The translations under genes were made by a program, and so were the position numbers. This document shows, in pieces, positions 4,486 to 53,694 of a stretch of DNA of 64,000 nt. Below the pieces are notes generated by a model that saw only the letters and a program-made list of their open reading frames with translations, was not told the DNA's origin and did no database searches. The stretch's first letter is position 1. Each line of letters opens with the position of its first letter. Origin of the DNA: a virus; the IMG/VR virus record IMGVR_UViG_3300034684_000096, positions 1 to 64,000 of that record. One strand, written 5' to 3'.

Positions 4486-7400
4486 ATGCCTACACCTGTA
4501 TCTACCGGTTCTTTGACTATAGCTGATTTGAATGACGGACTATACGCCCTGCTCTCTTCGGAGACAGGGCTGGTCCATTGTGATTCTGCAGGAACACCTA
4601 CCACCCCACTTACGACCACCCCGCTCACTACGATGATGACAGTATACAAAGGGAACTCAGTTCAGACGGGATTTTCTTTTACAAGGACTGCGAGTAGTGG
4701 GGTTACCTCTGCTGTAAACGCTTCCGGCGTTCTGTCTGTCACTGGCCTTACGGTGGGTGTGGATAGCGGGTGGGTTGATATTACAGCCTCCAAGTCTGGG
4801 GAGCCTTCGATTACCAAGCGCTATGTTATCTCTAAGGTTAAGCAGGGCATACAAGGTCCAGCCGGTACTTCAATAACCTCTGTAGATGTTGAATATGCAA
4901 TCAGCACATCAAATATCACAGCACCAACTACAGGTTGGTCCACTACTTCTCCAGCGTGGGAAGACGGTAAATACCTCTGGGCAAGGACGAAGACAACGTA
5001 TAGTGTGGGTGAACCGACTTACACAAATCCTGCTTGTATCACTGGAGGTAAGGGAGAAACTGGAGACCCGGGTCAGTTGCTTGGATTGAATGCTGACACC
5101 AATATTATTGGTGTACAGGTTCGTGGTAGTGAATTAATTACGCAACAGATTGTATTCACATTGTCAGGAAGAGATGTGGTGCTTTCTGATGTAGATTGGG
5201 TGCGTTCTGATTATGGTAATCCAGAAGAAGGATTTGAATATGTTTATGACGCGTTAGGTGAGATAGATTACACACAGAGATACATTGACTGTAGTACAGT
5301 ACTTAATGATAATATTAGTGTTTCTGTCAGTTATGTGTCTGGAACACAGGTTTTAACTTCTTCAGTGACCATATCCAAAATATTGGTTGGGACCGCACAG
5401 CCTATATACCTTGAAGCAACTGATACTATTCCTATAATAACTGAAGAAGGAGCATTAATAGAAGGTGATTTCTTCTTGTATGTCGGCCCATACTCTGGCC
5501 CGAATAGTGACCCCGGAGACCAAGGGCTTAATCCTGCTGTGGCTGAGACAAATGAATTTATCTATGGCCGTATTTATGAGTATAAAGGGAAGGACTCTGG
5601 AGGTGTTGACCAATGGGACGAATCCAGAAAGAGTGAACACTTTTCTGCTGCACAAAAGGACGCTCTTGAGATAGCAAAGAACTCAGGAGTTTATCTATAT
5701 GCTGCTGTGGTCGTGGCTCAGCTCGGCCTATTCATGGATTTGATTTTTTCAGGCTCTCTGATGAGCGCCGATTACATAGAATATACATCGGCCCAAATCG
5801 GTACTGTTGTTGATGGACACTTAGTGACTGAAGAAGATGTTGCATTAAAAAGACCGTACAAAGGCATCTATATGGATGGCAATAAGGGTTTGATAAAATT
5901 GCTATCTCTGATGGTTAAAGATATTGATGCTTTTGGCTTCCTTACATCCTCAGGGTTTAGGACGCTCCGGGGTGAGGATGGACAAACCATAGGGGTTTCT
6001 ACAGTCTCTCCCACTCTATGGAAACACTCCGAAATGGAAGCCTTGATTGCCAGTCAAGATACACTGGCTACGCTGTCAGGTACTATTGAAGGATATAGTT
6101 TTACAAGAGCTTCCAGACGGACAAATCAGCGGATATTATTGGCAAGCCATGGGTATGAGAGTGAAGAAATAAGTGCAGGGGAGGTCCATTATTTTACCAG
6201 ACTATACCCAAGTAAAGTTTTTTCTAATAGTACATTTTATTGTGAGTATAAAGGATATTATGATGGTTATGCTTCCGAGAGACTCTATTGTGGATATATA
6301 AGAGATGATGAACAGCAGATTGGTGAGCATCTTGGTGTTAGTTATACTGTAGCAAAAACATACAGTTTTGCCATTCCTAGAGATGGGCATCCTGTATATC
6401 CATCTTTTAGGATACTGCATAAATCTGCTGCCCTCTGGGGTAATCGTGGCTCTCATGTTGATTATCATAAAGTCTGGACAAACCAAGTTTTCTCTGGCCT
6501 TGTATTAGTGAATGGAGAAACATCATACGAAGTAATAGCTCCAGAGCCAAGTGCTTACTATCCCAATACCAAGACGTGGACAATCGGGTCGTACAACCAA
6601 AACAGCATTGATAACTATTGTTCGGGCACTGATTTCTACAACCTTTTCTCCGGCCTCGCAGTAGGCGCCGACGGCTTCTGCGATGGCGGTCAAATTCGGG
6701 TAAACGGGACACTGTATACAGTAACCCGTCTCACCAAGAATGCCAACTCGATTACCTTCTACACCTCTGGTGGTGTGGTCACAGTAGATAAATTCCAAGA
6801 AGGAACCAGCGTTGGCGTCTATACTTCTTTGGCAGTTACCCAAGCAATCAACTTCCAAGCTGTTGCAGGTGGTATCGAGACAAAGCACATATTCCCTTGG
6901 GGGACGCAAGCGGGTACTCCGGGGAGTTATGATATTGGAACGAATGATGAACGGTTTAATACAGCATATCTTAGCGGAGCAAATATAAAACCTGCTGGGC
7001 AATCAGTAGGCATGTCTCCTTTACTTACAAAAAGTCTCAATGGTTACCCAGGAATGGTGCATTCTGATGGAACCGATTCTAATTGGCTTAGGACACCTCT
7101 GAATGGCCTTATTCCTTATGCTTCTGGTGGAGCAAGCGCATTAGGAACGTCAAGTTGGCCTTTCAACAGCGGGTATTTCAAGAACCTTAATGTTACTGAG
7201 TCTATTTCAGTTTCTGTTACAGCAGGTACATATACAGTTTTTAGTCGCCTTGAGACACAGACTGTTGTACCGACAAGCTTTACTAAATATTTTGAATGTA
7301 GATTATGGTATAGTGGCACGATTAATGTAATGTTTACGATGAAAATTCCTAGCGGTTCCGGTTCAAGCTATTTTAGAGCTAGGGTATATGTTAATGGTGT

Positions 7401-17692: not shown

Positions 17693-20473
17693 GTGACATT
17701 TACATTTGAAAAAGAACAGAAAGAAGTAGTTGACTTGTCACTACAGTTACAAGAGAACCCTTCAATAGCAAGTACTCCTATTTGTAATACTTGCCCTTTG
17801 GCTGACCATATGGATATGATGCCTGTACAAGGCGAGGGTAGAATGAGAATACTGGTTGTACTCTCTCATCCTACTAAAGGTGACTTTGACATGGGTGGCT
17901 ATATGGCTTCCCAACAATTTACCCACATGGCAAATTATCTTGATAAGTTTGGAGTAGATATCAATAGAGATTGTTGGATTACTTCAGCAGTTAGATGTAA
18001 AACCAAAGGGCAGGTTCCTGAGAAGAAAGTATTTGACTGTTGTAGACCTATGCTATATAGAACAGTACAACAAAAGAAACCTTTTGTAGTATTCATTGTT
18101 GGCAGAAATGCCATGTATGGTTGGAAAGGGCACCAATTCTCTATTCCACCAAGAGCACCGAACGGATACAATACCTATGGAAATGACTCTGATTATACCC
18201 GATGGGTGATGAATCAGATACCTGATGCTGAGTATGCTTTTGATTATAATGGATACCCTATTAGACCAGTGGTAATGCCATTGTTTAATCCTGCAGATGT
18301 TTCAAATGCCGAAAGAAGTAATATGAAGAGAAACCGTACTACTTCTGTGTTGCCTTCTAGACAAATGCGTATGATTGAAAATGGTATTAACTTAGCTGTG
18401 CAGATTAATAAAGACCCTATTGCTCATAGTAGAAACCAGCAGAGTCTTTATAGTAAGCATTCAAAAACTGTGGTTATTAAGTCTGAAGTAGAAGCTATTA
18501 AAGTATTGAAAGAACTTAATACTCGGAGAATGATTGCATTTGATTATGAAACGACAGGTATTAAACCATATAACAAAGCACATGCAATTAAGATGGTTGG
18601 TATTGCTGATGGAGAGTATTCTTATGCAATACCATTTTTCAATTCATCTGCGTTTCTTAACGCATATGAAGCATTAATGACTAATCCCTCAGTAAAGAAG
18701 ATTGCACATAACTTTAAATTTGAGTATGTGTGGACTAAGATTAAATTAGGGTTCGAAGTTACTCCTGTGTATTGGGATACTATGCTTGCTGCTCATATTA
18801 TTGATATGAGAGAAGGTGTTACAGGATTGAAAATGCAAGGGTATTTACAATTTGGGGATGCTGGTTATGAAAAGGTAACAAAGAAATTGCTTGGTCCAGT
18901 AGAAAAGCAGAAGAAGGGAAGGAAAAATACGAATGCGATAAACTGGCTTTCGTATCTCAATCCGTATAATCTGCACGAGAATGAAAAAACATGGGACTTG
19001 CTATTAAACTATGTAGCTGAAGATGCTTCATTAACCTTTGCTTTGTACCACAGACAGAAACAGTTGATGGCTAATCTAGATTTACCTCATTTGATGAAGG
19101 GAATGAAACTCTTTATGGAGAGTACAGTTACCTTAGCTGATATGGAGATGAATGGGTTTGTATTGGACATTGATGCACTTCATGCCAATAAGTTAGAAAT
19201 TAAGAAGCGTATGGATAGTCTTAAGCAAGAGATGTTTACTACTAAGGAGTATGGGGCTTGGATAGAGGCACATCCAGATAAAGACATTAATTTCAATAGT
19301 CCAAAGCAATTACAGGAATTCTTCTTTGAGTTGTTGAAATATAGGCCTACAAAGTTTACGAAGAGTGGATTGCCCTCTACCGATAAAGAAGCATTAACTG
19401 ATATTGGTTCTGAATTTGGTAATAAGTTGTTGGAGTATAACGTATTGGATAAGTTAGCCAATTCATTCCTTACTTCCTATGAGATGGAAATGAATGAAGA
19501 CGGGCATATACGTTCTATCTTCAATCTGAATAATGTTACTTCATATAGAACATCTGCTTCGAATATTAATGCCCAACAGGTGAGTCATCATTCTGTTGAG
19601 TCTAAATATGTGCTTAATTTACTGAAGCCACATTTTGGGCACAGGATGATGAACATGGACTTCAAATCACTGGAGGTTTATACTTCTGGTGCACATACTT
19701 GGATGGTGCATGATAAAGATAATAAATCACTTGAGGGGACATTAAAGAGGTATCTTGATGATTTAGCTACAGATATGCATAGAGATATTGCTTCTGAGAT
19801 ATTTATGGTAGCCCCAGAAGAGATAACTAAGGACCAACGAAATAGAGCAAAGAAGTTTACGTTTGGTACTACCTATGGTGCCGGAGTAAAGTCTCGTGCT
19901 CATAATCAGTGGAAAGATATGACTTCACAGGAGAAAGCACATCTTGCAGAAAATGGGATTAAGAACTATGATGATTTTGTCAATCATATTAAACAAATTG
20001 ATTATAATTTCTGGAATGTTCGTTTTAAGGAGTACGGTATTTGGAAACGTAGAATTTGGGAGTTCTATGTAAAATATGGGTACTTTGTAGGAATGACCGG
20101 ATTTTTATATACTGCTCCTGATTTGAATGAAAGAAATTGCTTGAACTTTGGTAGTCAGGGAGATAGTGCACATATCCTTTTGTCGATGGCAAATTTTGTG
20201 AATGCAGAATTAAAGAAGCATAAATTACAGTCTAGGCTAATCTGTCAAGTACATGATTCCTTAATGATTTCAGTTATCGATAGTGAAATTCCTTTTATAT
20301 TTAGTAAGGTATCAGAATTCTTGAAAAACTTATACAAAGTATATCCTTTTACTGAAGGTTTTAATTACATGATAGAATGTGAGTTATCTGATATTAACGG
20401 AAATTGGGGTGAAGTAAAAGAGGTAGCTAAGATTAATGGAGATGGAGTGATTTACCTTAACAAGGAGGAGTAA
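17693..20473 (+). CDS. family A DNA polymerase with N-terminal uracil-DNA-glycosylase-like domain
   Basis: A 926-residue replicative polymerase beginning with GTG after AAGGAG. Residues about 25-200 resemble family 4 UDG: C31-x2-C34 and C102-x13-C116 (likely iron-sulphur ligands) with ITSAVRCKTKG and VFIVGRNAMYGW. A 3'-5' exonuclease follows from about residue 280 (AFDYETTGIKPYN; AHNFKFEYVW; YVAEDASLTFALY). The polymerase domain has motif A around residue 656 (MDFKSLEVYTSG), motif B around 716 (RNRAKKFTFGTTYGAG) and motif C at about 851 (CQVHDSLMISV, with Ser in place of the usual Glu). The same domain order is known from SPO1-type phage polymerases. Confidence 0.92.
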   Translation: MTFTFEKEQKEVVDLSLQLQENPSIASTPICNTCPLADHMDMMPVQGEGRMRILVVLSHPTKGDFDMGGYMASQQFTHMANYLDKFGVDINRDCWITSAVRCKTKGQVPEKKVFDCCRPMLYRTVQQKKPFVVFIVGRNAMYGWKGHQFSIPPRAPNGYNTYGNDSDYTRWVMNQIPDAEYAFDYNGYPIRPVVMPLFNPADVSNAERSNMKRNRTTSVLPSRQMRMIENGINLAVQINKDPIAHSRNQQSLYSKHSKTVVIKSEVEAIKVLKELNTRRMIAFDYETTGIKPYNKAHAIKMVGIADGEYSYAIPFFNSSAFLNAYEALMTNPSVKKIAHNFKFEYVWTKIKLGFEVTPVYWDTMLAAHIIDMREGVTGLKMQGYLQFGDAGYEKVTKKLLGPVEKQKKGRKNTNAINWLSYLNPYNLHENEKTWDLLLNYVAEDASLTFALYHRQKQLMANLDLPHLMKGMKLFMESTVTLADMEMNGFVLDIDALHANKLEIKKRMDSLKQEMFTTKEYGAWIEAHPDKDINFNSPKQLQEFFFELLKYRPTKFTKSGLPSTDKEALTDIGSEFGNKLLEYNVLDKLANSFLTSYEMEMNEDGHIRSIFNLNNVTSYRTSASNINAQQVSHHSVESKYVLNLLKPHFGHRMMNMDFKSLEVYTSGAHTWMVHDKDNKSLEGTLKRYLDDLATDMHRDIASEIFMVAPEEITKDQRNRAKKFTFGTTYGAGVKSRAHNQWKDMTSQEKAHLAENGIKNYDDFVNHIKQIDYNFWNVRFKEYGIWKRRIWEFYVKYGYFVGMTGFLYTAPDLNERNCLNFGSQGDSAHILLSMANFVNAELKKHKLQSRLICQVHDSLMISVIDSEIPFIFSKVSEFLKNLYKVYPFTEGFNYMIECELSDINGNWGEVKEVAKINGDGVIYLNKEE

Positions 20474-40414: not shown

Positions 40415-41587
40415 TTACTCTGACGCCTTGTAATTCCATACAGGCTTTAACACTTCTACTACCTCTACCGTAGGACCAATCTGACTCAGAATAGCTTCCG
40501 GTGCTTTATAAGCAAAAGGTGCTTCATCGATAGTCAATTCACTAATACAAGTAGTATGGATACCTTCCATACTTCTTTTAAAATCTTCTAGAGAAATATT
40601 CTCTTTTGCTTGTGTCCTTGACATTACCCTACCAGCACCATGAGGAGCAGAGTAATTCCATTCTTCATTGCCTTTTCCTATTCCTATAATCATTCCATCT
40701 CTCATGTTCAATGGGATAACTACTTTCTCTCCCTCATATGCACTAATTGCTCCTTTCCTCAATATCATACTCTTCTGCTCAATGTAATTATGGGTAGAGG
40801 AAATATATTCAGTGTAATTAGCGCCACCTAATTCATGTAGAATATTATTAATAATCATGCATCGATTGATATGAGCAAACGCCGTTGCTACTTCAACACA
40901 AAAGATGTATTCCAACATATCCCTACCAGTTAAGTACTCTAACCCATTGGCTATTTCAATCTTTGGTAATTCAGCAATCTTCTTCCCTAACTCATAGCTC
41001 GTGTACTGTTCTTTCAACTTAGCAATTGCATCATTTCTCTCTTTCTTATGGTTAGTACGCTTAGCAATGTTCTGGAAATGCTTAGCAATCTTACCCCCAA
41101 AACTACGGGAACCAGTATGAACACATAGCCACTGATTACCTTCTTTATCCACATCTACCTCAACATAATGATTTCCTCCACCGAGTGTACCTAAGCCCCT
41201 AACCGCTTCCTCTGGACTCTGGTTAGTCATCTTACACACTTTATGAAAGGACATAGGAAGCTTATATTCAAGAGAAGGTCTGTAACCTGCATCAAATATT
41301 TTTTCAATAATCTCGTCCAATACATTTACGTCAATATTCTTCTCCAACTTTACAGCCAACACACCACACCCAATGTCTGGTCCAATAAGATTAGGTACCA
41401 CTTTTTTCGTAATCTTCATAGTATACCCAATTACACAATTAGCTCCAGCATGTACATCACTCATAATTCTTGTATGTGCATTTTCACTGATAGGCAAATC
41501 AACAATATGCTGTATTTGTTCCTTAGCAGTATCTTCAATTTCAGATGCAAAAATTACTGCTGTATCATACTTTCCTTCTATAATCAT
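40415..41587 (-). CDS. rtcB: RtcB-type RNA ligase
   Basis: A 390-residue RtcB, at the short end of the family. It joins 2',3'-cyclic phosphate or 3' phosphate RNA ends to 5' hydroxyls using GTP and manganese. Signature segments: RIMSDVHAGANCVIGYT, GPDIGCGV (metal Cys), GTLGGGNHYVEV, VHTGSRSFG and NYSAPHGAGRVMSR (guanylylated His). It can repair tRNAs cut by host anticodon nucleases. Strong promoter upstream. Confidence 0.93.
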   Translation of the reverse strand: MIIEGKYDTAVIFASEIEDTAKEQIQHIVDLPISENAHTRIMSDVHAGANCVIGYTMKITKKVVPNLIGPDIGCGVLAVKLEKNIDVNVLDEIIEKIFDAGYRPSLEYKLPMSFHKVCKMTNQSPEEAVRGLGTLGGGNHYVEVDVDKEGNQWLCVHTGSRSFGGKIAKHFQNIAKRTNHKKERNDAIAKLKEQYTSYELGKKIAELPKIEIANGLEYLTGRDMLEYIFCVEVATAFAHINRCMIINNILHELGGANYTEYISSTHNYIEQKSMILRKGAISAYEGEKVVIPLNMRDGMIIGIGKGNEEWNYSAPHGAGRVMSRTQAKENISLEDFKRSMEGIHTTCISELTIDEAPFAYKAPEAILSQIGPTVEVVEVLKPVWNYKASE

Positions 41588-42479: not shown

Positions 42480-43586
42480 TTACAACGTCTCCTTATTTCC
42501 AGCAAACCATAGCTGGTAACTTCTACTCTTAGCTTTAAAACCAATACTCTGGTCAGTCATACTTCTCCACACCAAGCCTTCCCTAGGCACATCAGCCAAT
42601 ACACTTGTACCTTCGCAATCTTTCAATACTTCATCCAATGTATCAGGCAAGGTAACTCCTGTACCTACAAGCGGTACCATTAAAAGGTCGTGCTTAAAAC
42701 AGAATTGTTGCAACTCATTGAAATTAAATGCTTCCCCTGTATCAACATCTGTGACCTTATAGACAAACAACATAGGCATCTTCAACCCATAAATATTCTT
42801 CTGAACATCTGGACCGCAAACCTCACCCTGTATACAAAGATTACGTTTTTCGCTCCTAAGAATTCTCTCAAGTCCGTATATCTTACCGACTCTAGCCCAT
42901 AGGTTATTGTCGTTAGAATTACGAATTACATTGTGAGAAAACACTAGATACTTCCTTCGCTTTCCATAGAGTAGCCATGCTCCGGCACTTCCCTCACACT
43001 TTTCGGTCACATAAAAACGCTCATCTGGTCTCTGCTCTTTATATGCATTAAACAACTTCTCAATATTCGTTTCATCAGACTTCTGTACTGTTTCTGGGTA
43101 CTGCCTAATTTTCTTACCACGAATCTTTGCATACAGTTTTCTAAACCACTTGAACCGCATGAAAAACAGCATAATAGGGTTCTTATGTTTATTCTGAATC
43201 TGTTGCTTACCCTGTAGTTCCTCTGGGTCATATTTACGAATACCTAGTACCTCCGATACATCAGCACCCTCTTTAATTACAAAGTCTTCTGGAAGAATGT
43301 CCAAATTGAATGCAATGCCCGAAGAGTACATCCCACACATTTTCATGTTTCTAATTCTGAACCCATCATACAGTTTAGAATATGAATTTTTTCTTAAAAA
43401 CTCAAACTCTGGTTTAACAGGAAGCAAGGTGTCGTAAAAAATATAAACACACAAATCTCCTTCTTTAAACTGGTCTTTCTGTACAATAACCGGATAGTTT
43501 TCAATCGTTGCTTTCACAACCCTATCATACTTTGGAATAGGTTCAATCTTCTGAACCTTTGCTATAATTGCTAAATCTCTTGCCAT
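42480..43586 (-). CDS. DraRnl (Rnl5)-type RNA ligase
   Basis: A 368-residue ligase. The N-terminal 120 residues form an OB-like module (VQKIEPIPKYDRVVKATI; FKEGDLCVYIFYDTLLP), as in Deinococcus Rnl and related phage enzymes. The nucleotidyltransferase part has motif I YVTEKCEGS with the AMP-accepting Lys196, motif III LCIQGEVCGP (Glu255), motif IV REGLVWR (336-341) and motif V GFKAKS (Lys351, Lys353). It seals 3'-OH/5'-phosphate RNA nicks. Together with RtcB it covers both chemistries of RNA repair. Confidence 0.83.
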   Translation of the reverse strand: MARDLAIIAKVQKIEPIPKYDRVVKATIENYPVIVQKDQFKEGDLCVYIFYDTLLPVKPEFEFLRKNSYSKLYDGFRIRNMKMCGMYSSGIAFNLDILPEDFVIKEGADVSEVLGIRKYDPEELQGKQQIQNKHKNPIMLFFMRFKWFRKLYAKIRGKKIRQYPETVQKSDETNIEKLFNAYKEQRPDERFYVTEKCEGSAGAWLLYGKRRKYLVFSHNVIRNSNDNNLWARVGKIYGLERILRSEKRNLCIQGEVCGPDVQKNIYGLKMPMLFVYKVTDVDTGEAFNFNELQQFCFKHDLLMVPLVGTGVTLPDTLDEVLKDCEGTSVLADVPREGLVWRSMTDQSIGFKAKSRSYQLWFAGNKETL

Positions 43587-53036: not shown

Positions 53037-53279
53037 TTAGCATGGTGCACTCCTTGGAAGGAAACAATCTTCAAGTATATACGTCTCGTGATTCAAATGA
53101 CGATTGATACCAAAAATATCATGAGCAAAATCAAACCACTCAAAATTTAGTAATTTCTGTAGGTCTAATGACTGCTTTTCCATACAGAAATGTAAATCCA
53201 TCATAGTTGTCAAGTAAGGCATCTGTAATTCTTTTTCAGCTCTTTTTGCAATCTTTTGCATTAAATCATCTTTATTCAT
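53037..53279 (-). CDS. hypothetical protein downstream of the tmRNA-like RNA
   Basis: An 80-residue protein from ATG 53279, after AAAGGA. Helical (DLMQKIAKRAEKELQMPYLTT). A longer open frame reaches to 53,354, but its first part lies inside the tmRNA-like gene and is not coding. Function unknown. Confidence 0.55.
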   Translation of the reverse strand: MNKDDLMQKIAKRAEKELQMPYLTTMMDLHFCMEKQSLDLQKLLNFEWFDFAHDIFGINRHLNHETYILEDCFLPRSAPC

Positions 53280-53294
53280 GTTATTTTCCTTTAT

Positions 53295-53400
53295 TGGAGG
53301 TAAGGGGAATTGAACCCCTGTCTTATTAACTCTAAGCTTTCGTAATGTAGGCATTTATCGTCGCTTCATGCAAGTTAACAATCGAACCCTGTATACCCCC
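53295..53400 (-). ncRNA. miniature tmRNA-like RNA
   Basis: A 106-nt minus-strand RNA. The ends pair as a 7-bp acceptor stem (GGGGGUA with UACCUCC), including a G3-U70 wobble and discriminator A73, the alanyl-tRNA synthetase identity set. Next to the 3' side is a perfect T arm (AGGGG, loop UUCAAUU, CCCCU). The 5' side has AGGGUUCGAU, like the tmRNA D-region (GGAUUCGAC), instead of a D arm. Helix P2 forms from UUAACUU (53,372-53,378) and GAGUUAA (53,326-53,332), plus AAGC/GCUU. There is no anticodon arm. A possible tag frame starts at GCG 53,364 and ends at TAG 53,332 (ATINAYITKA). Pseudoknots of a full tmRNA are absent. CCA is not encoded. Confidence 0.75.
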
Positions 53401-53409
53401 GTAATTCAT

Positions 53410-53643
53410 TTATGCATTCTGCAAGGTTACAGAACCATCGTAATCTTCAAACATGCCTATAGCCCACATATTTGAATAATGCCCAACATCAATAGCACCC
53501 CCCTTATACACCACAACCACACCAGCACCACAAGTACCATTAGAGGAATTCATGAGCACAATGTTACCACTACTGGTTGACTTCATCAATTTTGGAAAAT
53601 CACTCACATGTTCTCCCTTATCCTTCGCAATTGTTTTAATCAT
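53410..53643 (-). CDS. small hypothetical protein
   Basis: A 77-residue protein rich in Gly, Ser and Val (SGNIVLMNSSNGTCGAGVVVVY; VGHYSNMWAIGMFEDYDGSV). This pattern recurs in phage proteins of unknown role. It is the only gene between the promoter at 53,666 and the tmRNA-like RNA, so the RNA is probably processed from its transcript. Confidence 0.55.
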   Translation of the reverse strand: MIKTIAKDKGEHVSDFPKLMKSTSSGNIVLMNSSNGTCGAGVVVVYKGGAIDVGHYSNMWAIGMFEDYDGSVTLQNA

Positions 53644-53665: not shown

Positions 53666-53694
53666 AGTATATACTATTTATTATTGTTTGTCAA
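53666..53694 (-). promoter_or_regulatory. promoter
   Basis: TTGACA and TATACT, spacer 17 bp, for 53410, the tmRNA-like RNA and 53037. Confidence 0.8.

Follow-up and report, generated by a model that had tools for sequence, protein, structure and literature searches.

Is the 106-nt tmRNA-like RNA encoded on the minus strand at 53400-53295 a working miniature tmRNA, a decoy that interferes with the host's machinery, or a remnant of an ssrA gene? The window, i.e. the whole 64,000-nt stretch of DNA analysed here, comes from a virus record of 120 kb (IMGVR_UViG_3300034684_000096), and its genes include those for a DNA polymerase, a DnaB-like helicase, a UvsX-like recombinase, RtcB, an RNA ligase, a tail-fibre-like protein and a small terminase subunit. 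Given this gene set, the virus is a tailed phage. The genes of the RtcB tRNA-splicing ligase and the RNA ligase (40415-41587 and 42480-43586, minus strand) lie close together and share the strand of the tmRNA-like gene. The features of the locus are as follows.

53666..53694, minus strand: promoter-like TTGACA-17-TATACT, a strong site upstream of the RNA, heading the unit gene-RNA-gene
53410..53643, minus strand: upstream gene of 77 aa, function unassigned, ending 9 nt before the RNA (PHROG 34898, E 1.8e-11)
53295..53400, minus strand: messenger-less tmRNA-like RNA gene, 106 nt (RF00023, 52.1 bits over model positions 1-374; phage model R1, 36.3 bits)
53394..53400, minus strand: 5′ strand of the acceptor stem, GGGGGUA (G1-G2-G3), pairing with 53296-53302 in 7 bp including G3-U70
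53381..53389, minus strand: tmRNA-type D-region GGGUUCGAU, from the sequence, a motif conserved in the tRNA-like domain of tmRNA
53372..53380, minus strand: 5′ strand of helix P2, 9 nt, from a constrained fold, with compensatory replacement in relatives
53334..53366, minus strand: apical hairpin AAGC-GA-CG ... CG-AAA-GCUU with inner stem AAGC/GCUU and a loop containing AAAUGCCUA, related to the loop motif AAANCC
53324..53332, minus strand: 3′ strand of helix P2, 9 nt, partner of 53372-53380
53303..53319, minus strand: perfect T arm AGGGG UUCAAUU CCCCU with GAC just before it, from the sequence and the RF00023 alignment
53295..53302, minus strand: 3′ strand of the acceptor stem, UACCUCC including U70, followed by the discriminator A73; the gene lacks CCA
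53037..53279, minus strand: downstream gene of 80 aa, function unassigned, its start codon ATG, preceded by AAAGG, 15 nt past the RNA (PHROG 12453, E 2.8e-13)
12433, 41611, 42205, 47252, 52016, 53666, 54223, 55519 and 63746 (minus strand), 61320 and 62493 (plus strand): copies of TTGACA-17-TATANT, by pattern count

The pattern TTGACA-17-TATANT has 11 exact copies in the window against 0.16 expected, and from these motifs the eleven sites are likely to be phage promoters read by the main sigma factor of the host. Transcription of the gene-RNA-gene unit is plausible, since one such promoter-like site stands upstream of it.

From 5′ to 3′ the RNA reads GGGGGUA UACA GGGUUCGAU UGUUAACUU GCAUGAAGCGACGAUAAAUGCCUACAUUACGAAAGCUUAG AGUUAAUAA GAC AGGGG UUCAAUU CCCCU UACCUCC A, the boundaries of P2 and the inner part being approximate. 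Rfam model RF00023 matched the window at 53292-53400 (minus strand), with the middle of the model deleted, at a score above the gathering score of 47 bits (E 1.2e-17); it was the best model of its clan at the RNA, the one other clan match having a lower score. ARAGORN made no call anywhere in the 64-kb window, the RNA included. The original prediction of a tmRNA-like gene with alanine identity elements is thus confirmed by the profile score and by G3-U70 and A73 in a 7-bp acceptor stem, and the perfect T arm, tmRNA-type D-region and P2-like helix that it described are all present. Of the features of a standard tmRNA, the RNA has the tRNA-like domain (G3-U70, A73, T arm, GGNUUCGAY) and the P2 helix. 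Also as predicted, sequence and fold show no anticodon arm, nor is there a D arm of tRNA-Ala, and there is no space for pseudoknots pk1-pk4 in its 106 nt or in the 63-122 nt of its relatives. The folding energy (-27.6 kcal/mol, z -1.8, 12 of 200 shuffles equally good) is weak evidence by itself; the homologues carry the structure well beyond chance. The RNA is the tRNA-like domain of a tmRNA with a capped P2 helix, without message or pseudoknots, and, as expected of a 'TLD only' phage tmRNA, it combines a full tRNA-like domain, the lack of a message and a phage genome.

Relatives were searched for in IMG/VR contigs by patterns made of the D-region, GAC and the T arm with a bounded gap, leaving the acceptor stem out of the pattern; the initial scan was flooded by T arms of adjacent tRNAs, and the pattern was therefore tightened. 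Among the matches listed, a full 7-bp acceptor stem stood at the expected place in 5 of 5, 9 of 27, 3 of 11, 107 of 120 and 0 of 1 loci in the five scans, and G3-U70 was present in every one of the full-stem loci (107/107, 5/5, 9/9 and 3/3 by scan). After identical sequences were dropped, there were at least 102 distinct RNAs of 63-122 nt, the window RNA included; at least 101 had all seven acceptor pairs, and almost all came from viral contigs. The 101 sequences among the matches listed fell into 41 groups at 80% identity. G1-C72, G2-C71, G3-U70 and A73 were invariant in 102 of 102 distinct RNAs among the matches listed, while acceptor pairs 4-7 took several forms each. The scan patterns did not select G1-G3, U70-C72, A73 or P2 covariation; the conserved D-region, GAC and T-loop partly reflect the pattern itself, and the D-region gives no independent support. 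RF00023 scored above its cut-off for the window RNA and nearly all relatives tested, and ARAGORN called none of the tested relatives. As a useful negative control, a pattern for the inner motif of the window subclass gave 17 matches without tmRNA context. Short pieces alone were matched when the window stretch was compared with phages by BLAST, and the protein of a neighbouring gene, used as bait for close relatives, gave none that was confirmed. Relatives of the RNA sit in several contexts: between a head protease gene and the gene of the major capsid protein, between the genes of terminase and portal, close to DnaB, and within tRNA arrays. One 136-kb viral contig (IMGVR_UViG_3300027749_000047, L207/L237) carries two messenger-less tmRNAs that differ from each other and are separated by about 67 kb, and the phage tRNA cluster that contains L126, a close relative of the window RNA, also contains a group I intron (6816-7000, Rfam 67.4 bits).

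Covariation was scored on sixteen gapless 78-nt sequences with an acceptor stem (7 bp), P2 (7 bp), an apical hairpin of 3 bp and a T stem (5 bp). In this class, 97.7% of cells were paired, both sides had changed in 18 of the 22 pairs, and double changes occurred at all seven pairs of P2. The covariation score of these 16 sequences was 0.780, compared with 0.164 ± 0.024 for shuffled alignments (0 of 500) and at most 0.165 for slid controls. Strong covariation is thus seen in P2, in the T stem and in the acceptor stem beyond pairs 1-3. The original prediction had looked to the tmRNA models, to the same short form with compensatory changes in other phages, and to conserved stems with G3-U70, and each of these bears it out. 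A covariance model (R1), built from the 16 other phage RNAs of the 78-nt class and giving rough E-values, had the window RNA as its sole match in the 64-kb window (E 8.5e-8). R1 also matches other long forms at 32-57 bits, where scores around 32 are weak alone because other, tRNA-consistent matches reach about 34 bits. Among the matches listed, the nearest relatives of the window RNA are L124, L126, L154 and L291 (104-106 nt), which share with it P2, an inner helix (AAGC/GCUU, or AAGAC/GUCUU in the case of L154) and a loop built around AAANGCC; the loop motif AAANCC was found in 45 of 101 sequences among the matches listed, compared with 3.7 in shuffles.

Cultured phages also carry the short RNA, almost always unannotated. 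It was found in Streptomyces phages LuckySocke, GiJojo, pSt2308, BRock, the Karimac group and the Samisti group, and also in Pontimonas phage phiPsal1 and Stenotrophomonas phage Jojan60. In one BLAST query, 82 records (by count, Streptomyces phages) covered the RNA, and 0 of the 60 records among the matches listed had an annotation at its site; BLAST with members L207 and L228 found no cultured relatives. For example, Karimac (MH590599) has an unannotated messenger-less tmRNA at 86164-86241 as well as an annotated full tmRNA at 97752-98030 (L306, L327), and the unannotated RNA of LuckySocke (OR725497) lies at 17977-18054. In the Karimac and Samisti groups the D-region has diverged from that of consensus tmRNA (GGUGUGAC, GGUAUGAC), with G3-U70, A73, P2 and AAAGCC retained and with compensation in P2, e.g. 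GUUAC/GUAAC to GUUAG/CUAAC. Other temperate phages have a copy of the 3′ end of ssrA near a tyrosine integrase or the phage end (L342-L347: Mycobacterium phages ZoeJ, Peanam, LilSpotty and prophiGD05-1, Gordonia phage Yeezy and Tsukamurella phage TPA4), and these are apparently att sites in ssrA, not short tmRNAs. In host genomes, the long-form pattern had a single true match over the GTDB collection, a Spirochaetia MAG contig that holds L291 and may itself be viral. R1, run on 198 genomes of the phylum of that MAG, gave just this contig above about 34 bits, the rest being tRNA-consistent, and the short-form pattern gave two chance matches without acceptor stem in 798 genomes of two other phyla. 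No SmpB gene was present in the viral records searched, a lone SmpB being found in the Spirochaetia MAG, so SmpB must be supplied by the host.

A phage tmRNA reduced to its tRNA-like domain is already known from mycobacteriophage DS6A, whose ssrA was listed as 'TLD only' by Hudson, Lau and Williams (PMC4131195). Like the window RNA it is phage-encoded and has neither tag frame nor pseudoknots; compared by its description, it differs from the window RNA, which has an extra apical hairpin with a GCC loop motif. As cited in PMC4131195, Mao et al. 2009 found that a DS6A-like RNA strongly inhibits tmRNA, chargeable or not, perhaps by SmpB titration, and inhibition of tmRNA in E. coli by the DS6A RNA is likewise cited in PMC11915505. 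The latter study, by Nawrocki, Petrov and Williams in 2025, assembled 97,179 tmRNA sequences, 79 of them from phages, and only 9 standard-form sequences had no tag frame or CDS, DS6A being the one such phage named. ARAGORN and BLAST were the tools of its main search, and the short RNAs found here escape ARAGORN. Standard bacterial tmRNA (RF00023) has the same acceptor stem with G3-U70, A73, D-region, P2, GAC and T arm, but is about 350-374 nt in length, whereas the 106-nt window RNA has no pseudoknots and no conserved resume codon, tag or stop. The messenger part has also been lost in mitochondrial tmRNA (RF02544) and in the plastid CDS-less tmRNAs of about 65 bp of Mallomonadaceae (PMC11915505); these are organelle-encoded, reductive forms, with the mitochondrial gene usually permuted, whereas the window RNA is one-piece and in a phage. 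Fremin and Bhatt (PMC8040213) described HMP2_734, an 84-bp RNA from gut metagenomes, as a novel tmRNA with the tag VGTTGLAW followed by a stop. It has a similar size and tmRNA-like structure, is called by ARAGORN in 1 of 36 instances and, compared by description, may belong to the messenger-less family, although its authors read a tag peptide and the window RNA has no conserved tag. PMC8363625 cites a crystal structure of the ribosome with SmpB, EF-Tu and a truncated tmRNA; like the window RNA, this tmRNA has no pseudoknot ring and no message, although it is a laboratory construct and not a gene, and the structure indicates that the A site can accept a fragment of this kind. A search that covered few subscription journals turned up no paper on the family as such.

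On balance we lean towards the reading in which the RNA is a phage tmRNA cut down to its tRNA-like domain, which is alanylated, binds EF-Tu and host SmpB, and competes with host tmRNA. The RNA would probably be excised from a short polycistronic transcript like a tRNA, would receive CCA, and could be charged with alanine by the host alanyl-tRNA synthetase via G3-U70, as the invariance of this pair suggests. The retained D-region, T arm and GAC point to binding of EF-Tu and host SmpB, after which the charged RNA may enter, or compete for, stalled ribosomes instead of host tmRNA. With no tag frame, trans-translation would be suppressed or blunted during infection and phage proteins would be spared ssrA tagging. 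This mechanism is supported by the inhibition of tmRNA by the DS6A RNA and by the truncated tmRNA seen bound to the ribosome, as cited in PMC8363625. A decoy for alanyl-tRNA synthetase, SmpB or EF-Tu had been among the original proposals and would have been new; it is still the best general mechanism, but since the inhibitory DS6A RNA was described before (cited in PMC4131195 and PMC11915505) the idea is not wholly new.

However, titration of SmpB may be only part of its action, as the invariant G3-U70 and the full tmRNA co-occurring in Karimac suggest. A pure SmpB decoy would have no need of alanine identity, and inhibition was independent of charging according to Mao et al. 2009 (cited in PMC4131195); the invariant pair therefore suggests an alanine-dependent role. 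We therefore leave room for an action other than that of a decoy, as a minority possibility, in which the charged RNA would undergo peptidyl transfer on stalled ribosomes (codonless alanine addition, or a ribosome freed with other factors) or would donate alanine elsewhere. We know of no route by which such a reaction would end without a stop codon, which counts against it. In its favour, G1-C72, G2-C71, G3-U70 and A73 are fixed while pairs 4-7 covary among the matches listed, and the Streptomyces phages retain the alanine signature, P2 and AAAGCC despite the drift of their D-region and despite Karimac's own full tmRNA, a pattern that counts against a plain decoy. This possibility agrees with the mitochondrial tmRNAs that have no CDS, which are found together with SmpB and are believed to assist without a tag (PMC11915505), but the sole experimental report on a 'TLD only' phage RNA cited in the same paper is one of inhibition. 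It is unlikely that the RNA is a decoy for some factor other than SmpB that recognizes alanine tRNA or acceptor stems, such as alanyl-tRNA synthetase, EF-Tu or a tRNA-attacking defence toxin, since most members have the D-region and GAC of tmRNA and not of tRNA-Ala, although the scans selected for both. Such a target would fit the acceptor end being the best conserved part of the RNA, the location of several members within phage tRNA clusters, and the RtcB and RNA ligase of the window phage. RtcB and RNA ligases are phage tools against RNA-cutting defences.

The remaining explanations are less probable still. A cis-acting processing site, with a tRNA-like hairpin at which RNase P and 3′ nucleases could cleave a polycistronic mRNA, would be in keeping with the 9 nt and 15 nt that separate the RNA from its neighbouring genes, and with some small siphophages in which it stands about 100-120 nt ahead of the gene for the major capsid protein or ahead of the portal gene. 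We consider it very unlikely, because the neighbours are wholly different between phages (capsid, portal, DnaB, tRNA arrays) and a plain tRNA would do, making alanine identity and P2 unnecessary. We regard a working miniature tmRNA with a 10-codon tag as highly improbable. The predicted frame, GCG...UAG at 53332..53364 (minus strand), encoding ATINAYITKA followed by a stop, does exist in the window RNA, but it was rejected as a tag since it is not conserved. Among the close relatives, only L291 has a frame of the same length and place (ATKMPTHANA followed by a stop); the GCG frame meets UAA at codon three in L124, which has just a shifted frame instead, has no stop in L126 and is interrupted by UGA in L154, in which the stop-supplying CUUAG nevertheless persists. 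Frames of at least 5 codons beginning with Ala or Gly showed no excess over shuffles among the matches listed (20 vs 18.8 in 87 short forms, 9 vs 9.4 in 14 long forms, 101 sequences in all), and members of 63-81 nt have hardly any space for a tag. The inner part is therefore read as RNA structure and not as coding sequence. Lastly, the earlier suggestion of a remnant of host ssrA or an att site, based on ssrA being a known integration site and on the existence of phages with 3′ ssrA copies beside integrases, is extremely improbable and was rejected. The apparent att copies of temperate phages consist of the 3′ part of ssrA and mostly adjoin an integrase, whereas the window RNA keeps both halves, which pair and covary, and no recurring integrase family is adjacent to the short RNAs.

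Taken as a tRNA-like domain that competes with host tmRNA, the RNA is no longer a curiosity: at least 101 distinct RNAs, compared with one named phage (DS6A) in the 2025 database, indicate a strategy directed at ribosome rescue that recurs among phages, which have probably used the short RNA repeatedly to interfere with or bypass this process. Culturable model phages, namely Karimac, LuckySocke, phiPsal1 and Jojan60, are now at hand for the question of why the alanine signature is invariant if the RNA is merely a decoy. A bolder proposal, which we hold to be doubtful, is that messenger-less tmRNAs form a widespread class of phage RNAs that, charged and guided by SmpB, would enter ribosomes without a template for codon-independent alanine addition or tag-free release, beyond titrating SmpB. 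If this is true, phages run or subvert ribosome rescue and do not merely titrate SmpB.

Two further elements were observed in other phages. Synechococcus phage S-CRM01 has, at about 88484-88512 (L349), an unannotated tmRNA 3′ acceptor and T arm followed directly by GGGGATG, which from its sequence looks like a permuted two-piece tmRNA. Enterococcus phage phiSHEF16 has, at about 42720 (L352), a longer stretch without annotation that is followed by a tmRNA-like T arm and acceptor end, and this is probably an unannotated full tmRNA.
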